Assembly: GCA_012839475.1 (NCBI GenBank)
Contig: DUNG01000005.1
Span: 62,001-126,000, forward strand
DNA: 64,000 nucleotides
From: Petrimonas sp.
Lineage (GTDB): Bacteria; Bacteroidota; Bacteroidia; Bacteroidales; Dysgonomonadaceae
Direction of reading: 5' to 3'
Positions 5,990 to 24,786 of the stretch are shown here, one piece after another. The number at the start of each line of letters is the position of its first letter. The stretch's first letter is position 1. Under the pieces are notes generated by a model. That model worked only from the letters and a program-made list of their open reading frames with translations, had not been told where the DNA came from and did not search any database. The translations under genes and the position numbers were made by a program.

Positions 5990-6083
5990 TAAATATTTAG
6001 GACAGGAAAATCAGTCGCGAATATTTCATTTTTATTTTTCTGTTACTTGTCTGTTTTGTTCATTACCGGATTTCACAAATTAT

Positions 6084-6118
6084 TTAGGGCTGATCCCATT
6101 TTCCAGGATCAGCCCTAA
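6084..6118. terminator. Bidirectional intrinsic terminator-like hairpin between convergent genes
   Basis: Perfect 13-bp inverted repeat TTAGGGCTGATCC-N9-GGATCAGCCCTAA between convergent GH92 (+) and GH9 (-). Confidence 0.8.
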
Positions 6119-6176
6119 TGTTTAGCTGCCTAAAGAGTTATATTGGGCAGCGGTGTTAATGGAACCTTTATCATGA

Positions 6177-12048: not shown

Positions 12049-12237
12049 GCGATTAATAAGTTAGTGAGTTATACATAAATTGCTTGATAATAGGCAAACC
12101 TTTTTAACAGGTTATGCAAATATACACTTTTTCATTGAGATAGGTATTCAGATAATAGATATTCGAATACCAGGTTTAGCTACAGGTCGAATCAAATGAC
12201 TATTGTATTTATTGCAGATAGCGTGGATAAGCGTAAA

Positions 12238-12320
12238 ACGAGCCCGTCTCCATGATAGGAGCGGGCTCGTTCGCGTTTCACCGGGTCACCCCCCATTGAT
12301 GGGGTGGTGTAAAGGTTCGA
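12238..12320 (-). repeat. Twin-hairpin element copy 1 (3' of lipoprotein A1; also terminator-like on the minus strand)
   Basis: ACGAGCCCG-t-CTCC-ATGATA-GGAG-CGGGCTCGT, conserved linker ACCGGGTCA, second stem CACCCC...GGGGTG; aligns with 19014-19090. Confidence 0.75.
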
Positions 12321-12327
12321 GGAGCCT

Positions 12328-13647
12328 TTACAGGCCAAATGTATAGGTTACAATCTGTTTCTTGCCGTTGCTGCTTGTAATGGTAACCTTATCAAAAACG
12401 CCTTTTTCAGCACCGGGGATATTAAAGGTAGCTTTACCATTATTATCGCTCTTCTTAGTCTGCTCATCTGTGTACCCATCTGTTCCAACAATGCTGAAAT
12501 GAATGTTACACCCTTTAGCGGGAGGCATCAATGTGGCTGTTACAGTTACCGGTACCCCGACACCCGGGTTTTGGGGAAAGTGCGTTGCGTTGATGTACCA
12601 CACCTCATCGCAACTTCTAACCTGTAGCTTCTTATCCAGATAGCAATATTCTGCTTTTGCCCCTTTTTTGAGTTCATTCGGTTTCACCGGGTTCATCGTT
12701 ATTTCCCTCTCCACGCCCTCCCCGGGTACCGAGAAATCGTTGATCACCATAGGCGCGTAACCCTCCATGTTAAATATAAGGGTTGATCCGTCAGGGATAA
12801 CATTCAGCGGCAGGGGCTCTCCTTGCTTGATTTTACCGGTAGCTATCCAGACAGAGGGCTCGATACCTCCACTTTTGGTGCTTTTCTTGCCAAATAGTTT
12901 CGTGCAAATCCAAGAAGCTCCAGCTCCTACAACGGAAGCACCTGCCCATAGCGCGACACCGGTAACACCCGCTGCTGAAATAGCACTACCAGCAAGCAAA
13001 GCAGCGCCCCCCCCAACGATGGCAGCGGCACCGATGGTTACCGTTTTTTGAAGGAGATCAAGTTTGTTTTTCTTATGTTCCTCTATTTCATGAAAATTAG
13101 CTTCTTCACGGGTGAGTTCTCCTTTTTTCACCTTCTCGTCGTACTTTTTTGTTGTTTTTTTATACGTTTCTCTCGCCTCCTTTATGCTTTCGCCCGTTTG
13201 TTTAACAGTCCCGATTCCAAGCGATGTGGGATTGTCTAAAACGGCATCGAGGACTTCACAAGTTATGTCCCCGGCCGTACTTCTCGTTCCCGGTGTAACA
13301 TTGTTTTCGTTATAATTAAACATGGAGAAAACCTGCCGGTTTTCTTCCTGGTATTTGAACATTTCCAGGTAGGTTTCACAAAATATCTCACCTGCTTCTA
13401 AATAGTCTTCAAATACTTTTCTAATCTCCTCTATTGACATGGTTTCAAAGTTAGAATTGATAAAGGCATCTTGCTTTATTACATAATCAGTAAGGGTAAC
13501 CGATACCTTCTCTATATTCTTTCCATGCTCTTTTGCCACCTCTTCCACGCTTTTCTTACCCTCAAACCACTCCTCACAGGAGGTGAAGTTGAAGCCAACA
13601 AGTGCTATCGTAGCACAAATAACAACTGTTTTAATTATTCTCTTCAT
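12328..13647 (-). CDS. Uncharacterised lipoprotein A1 (helical region, Gly/Ala-rich hydrophobic segment, Ig-like C-terminus)
   Basis: SPII signal VGFNFTSCEEW; clear paralogue of the protein at 20068-21384. Confidence 0.85.
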   Translation of the reverse strand: MKRIIKTVVICATIALVGFNFTSCEEWFEGKKSVEEVAKEHGKNIEKVSVTLTDYVIKQDAFINSNFETMSIEEIRKVFEDYLEAGEIFCETYLEMFKYQEENRQVFSMFNYNENNVTPGTRSTAGDITCEVLDAVLDNPTSLGIGTVKQTGESIKEARETYKKTTKKYDEKVKKGELTREEANFHEIEEHKKNKLDLLQKTVTIGAAAIVGGGAALLAGSAISAAGVTGVALWAGASVVGAGASWICTKLFGKKSTKSGGIEPSVWIATGKIKQGEPLPLNVIPDGSTLIFNMEGYAPMVINDFSVPGEGVEREITMNPVKPNELKKGAKAEYCYLDKKLQVRSCDEVWYINATHFPQNPGVGVPVTVTATLMPPAKGCNIHFSIVGTDGYTDEQTKKSDNNGKATFNIPGAEKGVFDKVTITSSNGKKQIVTYTFGL

Positions 13648-13689: not shown

Positions 13690-13795
13690 CGAATGTGTTT
13701 TTCATCTATTTGGCCGGAGCCTTAACCTTGTTCATCTATTTCGTTAACAGGGAGATTGGGATATTCTTGAAAAAAAGTGTTGATTTTTTTCATGT
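13690..13795 (-). pseudogene. Degenerate fragment of the 647-aa lipoprotein gene (intact copy at 22843-24786)
   Basis: Minus-strand translation KSTLFFKNIPISLLTK*MNKVKAPAK*MKNTFER aligns with KSAVAFENVPISLLTKYTEKVNTPAKWMKSATYV of the intact protein; DNA aligns to about 23000-23102. Confidence 0.85.
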
Positions 13796-18189: not shown

Positions 18190-18930
18190 ATGAACAAGGA
18201 TTTAGACAACAAGCAAGGCAACGTAGATTGCACAGAGAAGGTATTCAACATGCCCCGTATTGGAGAGAAAGCCCCGGCTTTCCGCGCCGTGACCACGCAG
18301 GGCGAGATCAATTTCCCGGAGGATTACAGCGGTAAGTGGAAAATTCTGTTTAGCCACCCGGCCGACTTTACCCCCGTTTGTACCACGGAGTTCATGACGT
18401 TTGCCACCCGTCAGAAGGAGTTCGAGGCGCTTAACTGCCAGCTCATTGGTCTTTCGGTCGACGGGCTATTCAGCCATATCGCCTGGTTGCGTAACATTCA
18501 GACCCTGGAGTATAAGGGGATGAAAGACGTGGAGGTGACTTTTCCGCTTATCGAGGATATCAAGATGGAAGTGGCCAACAAGTACGGTATGATCCAGCCG
18601 GGAGAGAGCGATACCAAGGCCGTGCGCGCGGTCTTCTTCATTGATCCCGAGAATATTATCCGTACCATCATCTACTACCCCGGGTCCATGGGCCGTAACT
18701 TCGATGAGCTGTTGCGCGTGCTGAAAGGACTCCAGGTGTCCGACGAGTTTGGTGTTGCCCTACCTGCCGACTGGGAGCCGGGTGACGACGTGATCGTGCC
18801 TCCAGCCGGTACTTGTGGCGTGGCTAAGAAGCGCATGAAGAGCGATGACAAGGATATGCATTGCCACGACTGGTACCTCTGCACCAAGAAGCTCTCAAAG
18901 GAGAAGGTCGACAAGGCGTTGTACAAGTAA
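18190..18930 (+). CDS. Peroxiredoxin (AhpC/TSA family, 1-Cys/Prx6-like)
   Basis: FSHPADFTPVCTTEF active-site motif; 246 aa with long C-terminal domain. Confidence 0.93.
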   Translation: MNKDLDNKQGNVDCTEKVFNMPRIGEKAPAFRAVTTQGEINFPEDYSGKWKILFSHPADFTPVCTTEFMTFATRQKEFEALNCQLIGLSVDGLFSHIAWLRNIQTLEYKGMKDVEVTFPLIEDIKMEVANKYGMIQPGESDTKAVRAVFFIDPENIIRTIIYYPGSMGRNFDELLRVLKGLQVSDEFGVALPADWEPGDDVIVPPAGTCGVAKKRMKSDDKDMHCHDWYLCTKKLSKEKVDKALYK

Positions 18931-19013
18931 CTGGCCTGGTTAACCAGTTTAAACGCGTAGCCGTAGCCCATTCATTGGACTTATCCATTGCGGAGAAATA
19001 GCTAAGCGTAAAA

Positions 19014-19090
19014 AGAGCCCGCCCCATGATGCATGATGGGAGTGGGCTCTTTCGATTTTACCGGGTCATCCCCTAGTGGGATGGGGTAAT
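19014..19090 (-). repeat. Twin-hairpin element copy 2
   Basis: AAAGAGCCC...GGGCTCTTT stem, ACCGGGTCA linker, CATCCC...GGGATG stem; homologous to 12238-12320 with compensatory changes; lies between the convergent peroxiredoxin and LRR lipoprotein. Confidence 0.75.
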
Positions 19091-19169
19091 GGCCCGTGGA
19101 ATTGCCTATCGTGTAGACACTTTGCTTGTCGGCCTATCGGGGTTGGTACTGGCTTCTTTGTCCCAGGTG

Positions 19170-20033
19170 TTATTTACGCCCTTTGTACACGGGACAATTG
19201 CCCGCGTACCCGACGCAATTATAGACCAGTTGCCACCCTTTATTCTTCGCCGCGGTAACCTGACCTTCAGTAGCAAAATTTTCCTCCTTAGCACTATCGC
19301 CTACAAATGCACAATACCTAAAATCTTCGCCTGATGAATTGTATTTTCCGAGGCTCTCGAGAAATTTATTGAAGTTCTCCCCATTGATACGGTTATGGTG
19401 ACAATAGATATAGAGGGGTATTCCGCCATTCAGCGACAGTTTCTCTATTTGGTTATCGTTGCAATGAATAGCCACGCCACCCGTGTATTTGGTTTCCACG
19501 AATATTGATAACGATTTCAGCTTGTTATTTGAACAGTCGATCCTAATAAACTTCTGTTTTGCCAACTGCAAGTTTTCTATCTGATTATTTTTACAGTCCA
19601 AAACATTCAACTTTGGTATCTTGGTCACATTTAGCTCTGTAAGTTGGTTACCACTGCAATCTAACCTTGACAGCGACTGGTTATTTATTTCCAACTTGGT
19701 AATCTGGTTATCGGGGCAGTTAAAATCGTCTATTTTGCCATAAACAGCCACCGTGCCCTCTACCTCATAGGTATCTAATCCGTTGAAATCTTCGCCTTTA
19801 TCTTTCTTACCGTTGCCGTTTAAATCGATCCAGCTGCCCGCTTCCACTCCAACCGCTACAAGTTCGACATTCACAAGACTTTCCGTTGTGATTTTAATAT
19901 AGTTCTCCTTACCTGCACTCTCCTCTTCGGTACCAAAATATTCGCTTGGATCGCACGATGCGAAACCCAGCATGACCATACCCAACAACAAGGGTAAAAT
20001 TTTGCTTTTTATATATCCATTTGTTATGCTCAT
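19170..20033 (-). CDS. Leucine-rich-repeat lipoprotein with a Ca-binding-like motif
   Basis: Lipobox LGFASCDPS; repeats LSRLDCSGNQLTELNV / LNVLDCKNNQIENLQL / IRIDCSNNKLKSLSI; DLNGNGKKDKGEDF motif. Confidence 0.85.
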   Translation of the reverse strand: MSITNGYIKSKILPLLLGMVMLGFASCDPSEYFGTEEESAGKENYIKITTESLVNVELVAVGVEAGSWIDLNGNGKKDKGEDFNGLDTYEVEGTVAVYGKIDDFNCPDNQITKLEINNQSLSRLDCSGNQLTELNVTKIPKLNVLDCKNNQIENLQLAKQKFIRIDCSNNKLKSLSIFVETKYTGGVAIHCNDNQIEKLSLNGGIPLYIYCHHNRINGENFNKFLESLGKYNSSGEDFRYCAFVGDSAKEENFATEGQVTAAKNKGWQLVYNCVGYAGNCPVYKGRK

Positions 20034-20067: not shown

Positions 20068-21384
20068 CTACACTCCAAATGTATAGGTAACAATCTGTTT
20101 CTTGCCGTTGCTGCTTGTAATGGTAACCTTATCAAAAACGCCTTTTTTGGCACCGGGGATATAAAAGATAGCTTTACCTTTGTTATCGCTTTTCTTAGTC
20201 TCCTGCTTAGAGTATCCATCTGTTCCAACAATGCTAAAATGAATATCACACCCTTCCGCTGGAGGCATTAATGTGGCTGTTACAGTTACCGACACGTTGA
20301 CACCCGGGTTTTGGGGATAGTGTGTAGCGTTGATGTACCACACGTTATCACAACTTCTAACTTCTAGCTCCTTATCCTGATAACAATATTCTGCTTTTGC
20401 TCCTTTTTTGAGCTCACTCGGTTTCACCGGGTTTATCGTCAACTCCCTCTCCATGCCATCCTCGGGTATTGAGAAGTTGTCAATTGCCACAGGTGAATAT
20501 CCATCTACATGAAAATAGACTGTTGCTCCCTCAGGAATAAGATTCAGCGGTAGGGGTTCTCCATGCTTTATTTTACCGGTAGCCATCCAGAGAGAGGGCT
20601 CGGAATCTCCACTTTTGGTGCTCTTTTTGGTAAATAATTTATAACTTATCCAAGTGACTCCTGCTCCTACAGCAAGAGGAACGGCAACTATCGACAGACC
20701 TGTTACGCCAGCGGCAGCCATACCCGCGCCAACTATTGTAGCTGCCCCTCCTCCATAAACAGAAGCGGTACCTAAAGTTACTGTTTTTGCAACGTGTTTA
20801 CGTAAATTTTCACCATGTTCTGTAAATTCATCTTCAACAGCTTTTACAGGGTCCCCTCCTTTTTTCACCTTTTCATCGTACTTTTTTACTGTCTCTTTAT
20901 ACATTTTATTCGACTCCTCAATGCTTTTGGCCGTTTGCATAACCTGCCCGAGTCCAAGCGAAGTGGGATTGTTTGAAACAGCATCGATGATTTCACATGT
21001 TATGTCCCCAACCGTACTTCTTGTTTTTGATGCAACATTGTTTTCATTATTATTAAACATGGAGAAAACTTGCCGGTTTTCTTCCTCATATTTGTACATT
21101 TCCTGGTAAGTATTACAAAATTTCTCACCTGCCTCGAAATAGTCCTCAAATACTTTTCTAACCTCTTCTATTGTCATGGTTTCAAAGTTACAATTGATAA
21201 AGGCATCCCGTTTGATTACAAAATCTGCAAGAGTACTCGATACCTCCTGTATATTTTTACCATGCTCTTTTGCCACCTTTTCCACGTCTTTCTCACCCTC
21301 AAACCACTCTTCACAAGAGGTGAAGTTGAAGCCAACAAGTGCTATCGTAGCACAAATAACAACTGTTTTAATTATTTTTTTCAT
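20068..21384 (-). CDS. Uncharacterised lipoprotein A2, paralogue of 12328-13647
   Basis: SPII signal VGFNFTSCEEW; near-identical ends to paralogue A1, diverged hydrophobic middle. Confidence 0.85.
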   Translation of the reverse strand: MKKIIKTVVICATIALVGFNFTSCEEWFEGEKDVEKVAKEHGKNIQEVSSTLADFVIKRDAFINCNFETMTIEEVRKVFEDYFEAGEKFCNTYQEMYKYEEENRQVFSMFNNNENNVASKTRSTVGDITCEIIDAVSNNPTSLGLGQVMQTAKSIEESNKMYKETVKKYDEKVKKGGDPVKAVEDEFTEHGENLRKHVAKTVTLGTASVYGGGAATIVGAGMAAAGVTGLSIVAVPLAVGAGVTWISYKLFTKKSTKSGDSEPSLWMATGKIKHGEPLPLNLIPEGATVYFHVDGYSPVAIDNFSIPEDGMERELTINPVKPSELKKGAKAEYCYQDKELEVRSCDNVWYINATHYPQNPGVNVSVTVTATLMPPAEGCDIHFSIVGTDGYSKQETKKSDNKGKAIFYIPGAKKGVFDKVTITSSNGKKQIVTYTFGV

Positions 21385-21440
21385 GTTCTTAGTTATGTGA
21401 ATTCTACCATATATTTAAAATTAGCCTTAAAACATACCTC

Positions 21441-22724
21441 TTACCATATCTGCATTAGGTTGCCCACATTGCTTGGAAGTGTAAACAGAGTATCTACAGG
21501 AGCTTCGGCATCGATACTTTGCAACTCTACATAATAATTCTTCTCTTTGGTGGTGATAAGAGCATAAACTTTTGTTCTCGATTTATTCAATTGCAAGCTG
21601 TTTTGATGCCAATATGGAAGATTTTTAAATTCAACAACTTCCACCTTATTACCATTATCTTTGTAATAAAAGTTATTATTACCTGTGCCACCCTGTAAAT
21701 TACCGTCATTACCAATTCTCATATGGTTTTTAATAGCTAAACTGGTCATTCCACCATATTCCTTTGACAGGCTTGTTACTTTCCTGGTCTTGAGATTGTA
21801 CTTAAAGTTATAACTGAAGCCATAGCCAAAATTACAGAAGTAAAGAGTTTCATTATCATTCAATATAGATATAAATGACGGCGTTCCTTCGCTGTCACCT
21901 ACTATCAGATCGAACTTGTCTGTTGGAATATCATAACGGAATAGTTTTGTACTTCCACCTTGCCAACCACCAAAGCCAGAAAAAGCAAGATGGTATCTGA
22001 TAGACCCGATAATTGTTTTGCTATCCGGAGTTATACAGTTAATCGATAAATACCATCCATGTGGCTTGTCCACACCATACGGATCTTTATAGGTAGGTTG
22101 GTATCCTACAGCATTCAAAAGCCCTTGCAAGTTTATCTCCGCACTCTTTTTTGAAGCTACATCATACATGATTAACCCATCTTGTGCATTATTATCTTCA
22201 GGCCCCCCCTCGCTATTGGCAAAACAACGACTAAATTCATAAAAGACCTTCTTGCCATCAGGCGAAACATAGAAATCTTTCATATTAACAAAAAGCTTTT
22301 CCGATTTACTACCTTTAATATGTGGCAAGTATGTCCATTCAAGTGTCTCAAGGTCGATAACATAAGGAACAGGTCCACCGGTAAAACTTCCTGCTTTATG
22401 ATAGTCTCTACATACAGACTCTTTCTTTGAAACTACCAAGAAATGGCTACCTAATTGTCCGGAAAGTGTAGGATGGTTGTTGTACCCGAATGTTATCCCA
22501 TTGATCTTTTCAATAACAGGCTCATCGCCTTTTTTCCAGCTAATAAAGCAAGGATAATCATTGTCAATTGTACCTATAAAGGTCATAACCGTTGATTTAC
22601 CCGGTTTATCTGGGTTATCGGGATCATTCGGATCATCCGGAAACAGCTCGTCACACGCAACAAATAGCACCATACTCATCATGAGTGCTATAAATAGTTG
22701 TAAAAATTTATTTAACTGTTTCAT
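21441..22724 (-). CDS. Lipoprotein with predicted beta-propeller-like repeats
   Basis: Lipobox MVLFVACDEL, Asp/Asn/Pro linker, blades such as YVIDLETLEWTYLPHIKG and LFRYDIPTDKFDLIVGD. Confidence 0.7.
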   Translation of the reverse strand: MKQLNKFLQLFIALMMSMVLFVACDELFPDDPNDPDNPDKPGKSTVMTFIGTIDNDYPCFISWKKGDEPVIEKINGITFGYNNHPTLSGQLGSHFLVVSKKESVCRDYHKAGSFTGGPVPYVIDLETLEWTYLPHIKGSKSEKLFVNMKDFYVSPDGKKVFYEFSRCFANSEGGPEDNNAQDGLIMYDVASKKSAEINLQGLLNAVGYQPTYKDPYGVDKPHGWYLSINCITPDSKTIIGSIRYHLAFSGFGGWQGGSTKLFRYDIPTDKFDLIVGDSEGTPSFISILNDNETLYFCNFGYGFSYNFKYNLKTRKVTSLSKEYGGMTSLAIKNHMRIGNDGNLQGGTGNNNFYYKDNGNKVEVVEFKNLPYWHQNSLQLNKSRTKVYALITTKEKNYYVELQSIDAEAPVDTLFTLPSNVGNLMQIW

Positions 22725-22842
22725 AACTTGTTCTTGTTTATTATTTTTTAGTTCAATATCTTTTTTTCAAGTACTTTTCACATCATTATTTTAATCATGT
22801 CATTTTCATGCTAAACTCCGCACCTATTTTCAGTCAATACAT

Positions 22843-24786
22843 TCACTTTTTCTCCACGTAGTAGAACATGATGATGGTGTTCTTTGCAAAAAGTTTTTTG
22901 GATGACATATTATTTTTAGTGCCGGTAGCCGATACAAGGTAAGGGCTTAAGTCAGAGCCTTTTATGTAAATGGCGCCTCCTTTTGTGTTATACACGTACG
23001 TGGCACTTTTCATCCATTTGGCCGGAGTGTTGACCTTTTCGGTGTATTTCGTTAGCAGGGAGATGGGAACATTCTCAAAAGCAACTGCTGATTTTTCATT
23101 AAACACGTAGACATCTGACTCATTGGCATAATGCCCCTCTTGGTGCGATGTATGGTTGAGGGTGAGTTTTGTTATCTTGGTAGGTTTTTCTGCTTTATCT
23201 ACCGTGAGTTCCATTTCAGTAACTTCATTGATATCGCTAATGTATGTCTTGCCGAGCGCGGAAACTGTTTTGGTAAAGGTAACATTGCCTTTCCCGGAGA
23301 ACTGTTTCTTGTCCGACGGGTTTTGCTTGAGCGCGAAAAAGTCGGTGGGTTCCGTGCAGGATGAGAACTCATCTAACCAAAGACCTCTTGAGCCCCTAAA
23401 ATTGATATGCCAGGAGTCGTGGTAAACATTCAAGTCTACTGTCTTTGCGGTAGCGGCATCCGGCACTGTGAAAAAATGGATATTTCCCAACAGGTAATAG
23501 GTTTTTCCGCCTTCCTGATCATCATCTTCATCTTCTTCAGGTTCCGCGGTATTCACCTCGGTGACGGTCACCTTCCCAGGCTTCACATCGATCTCCACCG
23601 TTTCGCGTCGTCCCTGCTCGTTGATGGCGGTGACCAACCATTTCCCAACGGCCAGCGCTTGGTCGATGCCCTCCTTGACCCATTTCTTCCCGGTCACGTA
23701 GATCGATGGCCCGTCATCGGATGGTGCGCTTTCCTTCTTCTGGGAGATGACGATTTTTGCCGGCTGCTCCTCGTTCTTATCCTTCACGACGATTTTTCCC
23801 TGCTCCTTCTTGTCAAACTCCTGCGTTGCTTCCTGCGACACCCTTTCTATATGTTCGGCCAGCTGCTCACACACGAAATCCGAAACCTCCACGGTGGTTT
23901 CACCGAAGAATTTTCCCTTCAGGTAGTTTTTCATGTCCTCCTTCGCCTTCGCCTTTTCATTGAAGTCCTTGGCGTTCGCGAGCCTGTCCACATTATCGGT
24001 GACCGTGACGATCTCCATGCCGATCTCTGCACCGGGTACCACCGTTGAAAAGGCATCGAGCGCTATCTGGGCACCACTAGCCGCTATTTCCCCGTAATCT
24101 TTTGTCAGGTCCTGCAGTGTCAATCCCTTTTCTTGGAGCGTGACGATCACGTCCTCATTGTCCGAGGCCAGCAGGTCTCCCATTAGCCGGTTCCCGTGTT
24201 CATCGTACGACCCGTCAAGCATCCTATCGTAAAACTCCTTCTCGCTGTACGGCTTGTTGCCCCAGCCGTAGGTGTCCCAACACTCTTTGGCGCTCTCGTA
24301 CATTTTGGTGCGGGTCTTTTTGTCCACGTTGGTGTAGACCACCATGTACCGTTGCCTGTTCCTCTTCTGAATGCCGGAGACTTTGCCGAAAAAGTTGGTT
24401 ATGGAACCGAACAGCCCTCTGGTCCTCGTGGGTGACATCAGCACTCCCGACTGCTCCAGTTGTTGTGCGGCCGCCTCGTACTGCTCCGCCTTCTCACTTA
24501 TGTCGGCCACGTAGCTGACCAACCGTCTGCACTCCTCTATGCTCAAGGTTCCCTCAAGTGGTCCTTTCGTGAACCCGTCGGAGGTGTAATTCAAGAACTC
24601 AAGCATCATGGCCTCCTTGAGGTACGCGAACTCGTAAAAGAGTTCCACGTCCGACTGAAAGCCCTCGTAGCCCGTGTCGGAATTACCTATATTTTTCTCT
24701 ATTCCATCGGGATCGCAGCCTTGCCATATCAGCAACGCCAGCATTATGGTAATGAGTATCCATGGTAATGATATCCTCTTTTTCAT
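22843..24786 (-). CDS. Uncharacterised 647-aa lipoprotein
   Basis: SPII signal ALLIWQGCDPDG; helical N-terminal half, acidic linker EPEEDEDDDQEGG; C-terminal region matches relic at 13690-13795. Confidence 0.8.
   Translation of the reverse strand: MKKRISLPWILITIMLALLIWQGCDPDGIEKNIGNSDTGYEGFQSDVELFYEFAYLKEAMMLEFLNYTSDGFTKGPLEGTLSIEECRRLVSYVADISEKAEQYEAAAQQLEQSGVLMSPTRTRGLFGSITNFFGKVSGIQKRNRQRYMVVYTNVDKKTRTKMYESAKECWDTYGWGNKPYSEKEFYDRMLDGSYDEHGNRLMGDLLASDNEDVIVTLQEKGLTLQDLTKDYGEIAASGAQIALDAFSTVVPGAEIGMEIVTVTDNVDRLANAKDFNEKAKAKEDMKNYLKGKFFGETTVEVSDFVCEQLAEHIERVSQEATQEFDKKEQGKIVVKDKNEEQPAKIVISQKKESAPSDDGPSIYVTGKKWVKEGIDQALAVGKWLVTAINEQGRRETVEIDVKPGKVTVTEVNTAEPEEDEDDDQEGGKTYYLLGNIHFFTVPDAATAKTVDLNVYHDSWHINFRGSRGLWLDEFSSCTEPTDFFALKQNPSDKKQFSGKGNVTFTKTVSALGKTYISDINEVTEMELTVDKAEKPTKITKLTLNHTSHQEGHYANESDVYVFNEKSAVAFENVPISLLTKYTEKVNTPAKWMKSATYVYNTKGGAIYIKGSDLSPYLVSATGTKNNMSSKKLFAKNTIIMFYYVEKK

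Follow-up and report, generated by a model that had tools for sequence, protein, structure and literature searches.

Two copies of a twin-hairpin element, E1 and E2, in the window (the entire 64,000-nt stretch of Petrimonas sp. DNA analysed, contig DUNG01000005.1) are very probably paralogous intrinsic (Rho-independent) terminators with an accessory 3'UTR hairpin, duplicated together with part of a lipoprotein operon. On the most likely reading, the operon ends in a pair of hairpins that acts as a conventional transcription stop, probably in both directions; the element is real but ordinary. Shown here are the homology of the copies, a collinear duplication, their position, their predicted structure and compensatory base pairs, whereas the act of termination is inferred.

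E1 (about 12228-12324, minus strand) is a 3'UTR element of gene A and consists, in minus-strand order, of stem 2, a linker, the stem 1 terminator hairpin and the end TTTTACGC. Its stem 1 (12237-12271, minus strand) forms the terminator hairpin AACGAGCCCG...CGGGCTCGTT of -26 kcal/mol, after which the T-rich TTACGCTT comes on the minus strand. Its stem 2 (12287-12306, minus strand), CACCCC/GGGGTG, is an upstream 3'UTR hairpin in minus-strand reading. E2 (about 19003-19100) is the same element, a putative bidirectional terminator located between ahpC (+) and the LRR lipoprotein operon (-), and neither it nor its stems are assigned to one strand. Stem 1 of E2 (19012-19052; AAAGAGCCCG...TGGGCTCTTT) runs on as TTACGC on the minus strand and as CGATTTTA on the plus strand, stem 2 (19067-19083) is CATCCC/GGGATG, and the minus-strand end is TTTTTACGC. 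The box GCGTAAAA is common to both copies, starting at 12231 in E1 and 19006 in E2, and the linker ACCGGGTCA occurs in the window at 12280 and 19060 only. The preliminary description of this DNA had reported a shared box, two stems and a linker, and all of these parts were located in the window, spanning 12231-12315 in E1 and 19006-19089 in E2.

Stem 1 is formed by ACGAGCCCG/CGGGCTCGT in E1 and by AAGAGCCCG/TGGGCTCTT in E2. One full compensatory pair (C-G to A-T) distinguishes the copies, as first described, besides a G-C to G-T change absent from that description; the single compensatory pair reported for stem 2 (C-G to T-A) is likewise seen. In blastn, E1 and E2 align over 86 columns with 77% identity (E 6e-12), and their local alignment scores 69, the best of 60 shuffles scoring 26; identity amounts to 77-86% across about 80-100 nt, loop and linker included. 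Sequence comparison confirms E1 and E2 as homologous structured twin hairpins and a real element.

Both copies lie 3' of a minus-strand lipoprotein gene, in agreement with the preliminary description. Gene A (12328-13647, minus strand), encoding a 439-aa putative lipoprotein, ends at E1 and is a paralogue of 20068-21384 (71% aa), whereas the LRR lipoprotein gene (19170-20033, minus strand) is the last gene of the operon ending at E2; the N-termini of 12328-13647 and 19170-20033, read from sequence, resemble lipoprotein signal peptides. The E2 operon (operon 2) contains four genes, with A' (20068-21384), 21441-22724 and 22843-24786 upstream of the LRR gene (20068-24786, minus strand) and gaps of 34, 56 and 118 nt, while E1 ends the single gene A. 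An ahpC-type peroxiredoxin gene (18190-18930, plus strand) is convergent with operon 2, its 3' end facing E2. A scan of the 34, 56 and 118 nt gaps inside the operon detected no terminator-like hairpin, which makes E2 the operon's only terminator candidate.

The E1 region is collinear with the E2 operon in three segments, 12228-12305 with 19003-19087 (77%), 12329-13647 with 20069-21384 (80.5% nt) and 13699-13788 with 23007-23096 (79%). The last of these is a 90-bp remnant of coding sequence of the gene 22843 type (13699-13788, minus strand) upstream of gene A, which matches gene 22843-24786 at 79% nt and, in tblastn, at residues 564-594 (E 5e-6), and whose order and orientation are those in operon 2. 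Given the paralogy of A and A' (71% aa, 80.5% nt) and the remnant in operon 2 order, the E1 unit is most plausibly what erosion has left of a duplicated E2 operon, with loss of the LRR gene and gene 21441. The divergence of E1 and E2 (77%) is like that of A and A' (80.5%), as expected if they were duplicated together. Since E1 lies within this collinear, eroded duplicate, the copy number of the element reflects operon duplication.

Searched with a covariance model built from the two copies, the 3.39 Mb genome yields no others; behind E1 and E2 ranks the reverse strand of E1 itself, and the remaining matches have E above 1. Among 60 related genomes, strong matches are restricted to G020 (two copies, a and b, E 4e-24 and 3e-18) and G031 (one copy, E 1e-10), and extending the search to 101 genomes of the family brought no additional strong match. 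The model search proposed in the preliminary description thus gave no third copy in the genome itself; two congeneric species contribute three copies, each at the corresponding ahpC/lipoprotein locus. Weak matches in other genomes are probably chance-similar G+C-rich stems at gene ends. A pattern scan of the genome contig collection independently recovered the same G020 and G031 sites, along with four unrelated pattern matches; the records with the element are DUPB01000063.1 (Bacteroidales bacterium) and JAMNYO010000060.1 (Bacteroidetes bacterium Bin_28). The stem 1 pattern has six matches in its own genome versus eight for the reversed control, and no exact match among the viral contigs of the collection scanned. 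A one-mismatch search with the linker ACCGGGTCAYCCC gave 22 matches genome-wide, and among the 20 that were folded the twin hairpin is present in E1 and E2 only; the other folded matches resemble coding sequence. Rfam, the comparison with which had also been suggested, yielded nothing for the window when the gathering score was applied; with E relaxed to 10, no match overlapped E1 or E2, the sub-threshold matches lying elsewhere. G020 offers a parallel to the duplication, its copies a and b being 90% identical and the neighbour gene of copy a 67% identical to the paralogous gene of the copy-b operon.

The locus shares further features between species. The segment 13990-18930 encodes a propeller-type sensor histidine kinase, a LytTR response regulator and the AhpC-type peroxiredoxin, linked beside a variable lipoprotein array in three species. 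In all three the kinase, regulator and peroxiredoxin genes are on the plus strand and minus-strand putative lipoprotein genes come next; the G031 kinase is represented by two open frames. Genes A (12328-13647) and A' (20068-21384) encode about 439 aa, and their only domain match is a sub-threshold one to Big_1 at the C-terminus. Neither has a relative in the 60 related genomes, nor has gene A one in the genome contig collection; A and A' are orphan genes duplicated in this species. The congeners possess 1670-aa leucine-rich-repeat lipoproteins in the same array (L048:10306-15318, L050:8218-13230), which are absent from the window, and a remnant of the 288-aa LRR gene lies downstream of G031's 1670-aa LRR lipoprotein gene. 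The locus is a lineage-specific lipoprotein locus, duplicating and eroding.

Across the five copies, double changes that keep the pairing occur at three pairs: outer pair 3 and upper pair 2 of stem 1, and pair 3 of stem 2. Two of the pairs differ in this way between E1 and E2, and the third emerges with the homologues. These three pairs with double compensatory changes support the selection for hairpins that the preliminary description had proposed. In the MAFFT alignment the percentage of paired cells is reached by 2 of 500 shuffles, while the number of double-change pairs is reached by 132 of 500, which limits the statistics. The upper part of E1 stem 1 is slightly out of register in MAFFT, and the pairs were therefore counted also on a hand-made register. 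Near-pairs favour no strand, with three G-U on the plus versus four on the minus strand. The linker, described earlier as invariant, is kept as ACCGGGTCA in three copies and altered in the other two (ACCGGATCA in G020b, ACCGCATCA in G031). In the predicted folds of E2 and G020a it can instead pair with ATGGCCCG downstream of stem 2, forming an alternative longer plus-strand stem, and thus need not be a protein or ligand site. G031 has lost stem 2 through a deletion running into the LRR-gene remnant. The E2/G020b comparison gives identities of 85% for stem 1, 84% for stem 2 and 99% for the adjacent 3'UTR; judged by sequence identity, conservation of the element does not exceed that of its flanks.

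The 3'UTR of the LRR gene (19101-19169) is 99% identical with that of G020b (coding sequence 89-92%) and 93% with that of G031. Next to G020 copy a the LRR gene has disappeared, but a fragment of this 3'UTR persists.

Gene order places all five copies at the 3' terminus of minus-strand lipoprotein units, i.e. at the end of a transcription unit, the position of an intrinsic terminator. According to a home-made heuristic applied to 48 predicted gene ends, window only, the best two terminator-like hairpins are E2 from ahpC (-27.1 kcal/mol) and E1 from gene A (-26.0 kcal/mol), with a T-rich tail; E2 from the LRR operon side ranks fifth (-22.2 kcal/mol). Stem 1 has a predicted fold of -22 to -27 kcal/mol in E1 and E2, a stable G+C-rich hairpin, and a U-rich run directly follows in both (TTTTACGC and TTTTTACGC); the minus-strand tail TTGTACGC of both G020 copies is a weak U-run. 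A minus-strand RNA polymerase leaving the lipoprotein operon would transcribe stem 2, the linker, the G+C-rich stem 1 and a short U-rich run, and should stop at that run. Minus-strand termination is inferred for E1 and E2 alike. The E2 hairpin, which separates ahpC from the LRR operon, is preceded by an A-run and followed by a T-run (AAAAAGAG...CTCTTTCGATTTT); with this A-run on one side, T-runs on the other and ahpC converging, E2 probably terminates both units, that is, on the plus strand as well. At three of the five copies (E2, G020 copy a and the G031 copy) ahpC and the lipoprotein unit converge. No plus-strand gene faces E1 or G020 copy b, each of which closes a lipoprotein unit at its 3' end, so two-way use cannot apply there. 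The absence of stem 2 from the G031 copy suggests that it is dispensable; it may stabilise the transcript end or act as a reserve hairpin. The presence of two copies would go back to duplication of the lipoprotein operon including its 3' end; erosion of one operon copy would then have left E1, gene A and part of gene 22843, and the compensatory changes would represent ordinary selection that keeps a terminator stem paired during sequence drift.

Intrinsic bidirectional terminators in tail-to-tail gene pairs are treated in TransTermHP (Kingsford et al. 2007, PMC1852404). As predicted terminators, E1 and E2 resemble these in the G+C-rich hairpin, its T-run 3' and its place at operon ends, and E2 also in the A-run 5' and in lying between convergent genes; they differ in a second G+C-rich hairpin beside it and in the two paralogous copies. 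Structured 3'UTR RNAs in Rfam likewise have conserved pairing in the 3'UTR, but E1 and E2 lack a family match at gathering score or an overlap at E up to 10. A role of hairpins and linker beyond termination, as a regulatory small RNA derived from the 3'UTR or as a structure that stabilises RNA or binds protein, is unlikely. The compensatory pairs in both stems, the linker kept in three of five copies and the adjoining LRR-gene 3'UTR, 93-99% identical between species, would suit such a role. However, the linker is altered in G020b and G031, stem 2 is lost in G031, the element falls below its 3'UTR flank in conservation (E2/G020b), no Rfam match exists, near-pair kinds have no strand preference, and the statistics from five sequences are weak, 132 of 500 shuffles attaining the number of double-change pairs. 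The earlier proposal of a function beyond a simple terminator is not sustained: the genome holds no extra copies, no RNA family matches, the linker varies and stem 2 is lost in one species, while the copies derive from an operon that was duplicated including its 3' end, and their location, the strength of the hairpin and the T-runs fit an intrinsic terminator at the end of an operon. Very unlikely, too, is a discrete 3'UTR-derived RNA, yielded by the terminator together with the conserved LRR-gene 3'UTR, common to several lipoprotein units and coordinating them or the facing ahpC gene.

REP/REPIN elements are short, palindromic and intergenic, with two hairpins, and are associated with RAYT transposases. 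E1 and E2 share all of these structural traits, but there are two copies and no dispersed family in 3.39 Mb, no transposase was seen nearby, and operon duplication explains the copies; a REP/REPIN repeat was rejected for want of many dispersed copies. A mobile repeat of this kind, or a recombination site (integron-attC-like or attachment-site-like) moving lipoprotein genes as cassettes, is highly improbable, even though copies flank variable lipoprotein genes and the homology of the paralogous copies begins just outside stem 1. Against it stand the two genome copies, confined to one locus and standing beside operon parts that are paralogous and identically ordered, the pattern predicted by segmental duplication, the lack of any recombinase or transposase among the Pfam-scanned window proteins and of an exact stem 1 match in the viral contig collection. 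An integron attC or other recombination site was rejected since the Pfam-scanned window genes include no recombinase and the flanks consist of paralogous parts of an operon. Gene ends often carry G+C-rich stems, and two unrelated terminators could in principle look alike, yet the probability of chance resemblance is negligible here: identity of 77-86% includes loop and linker and lies far above shuffles, and the flanking paralogy is collinear, which together refute it. With terminators duplicated along with their operon as the preferred reading, E1 and E2 illustrate that duplication of an operon along with its terminator is enough to produce a short structured repeat showing compensatory changes, and the two-copy case is a useful caution for covariation-based RNA discovery.

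The window contains a further strong two-way terminator-like hairpin (5990-6176; TAGGGCTGATCC...GGATCAGCCCTA) between convergent glycosidase genes.
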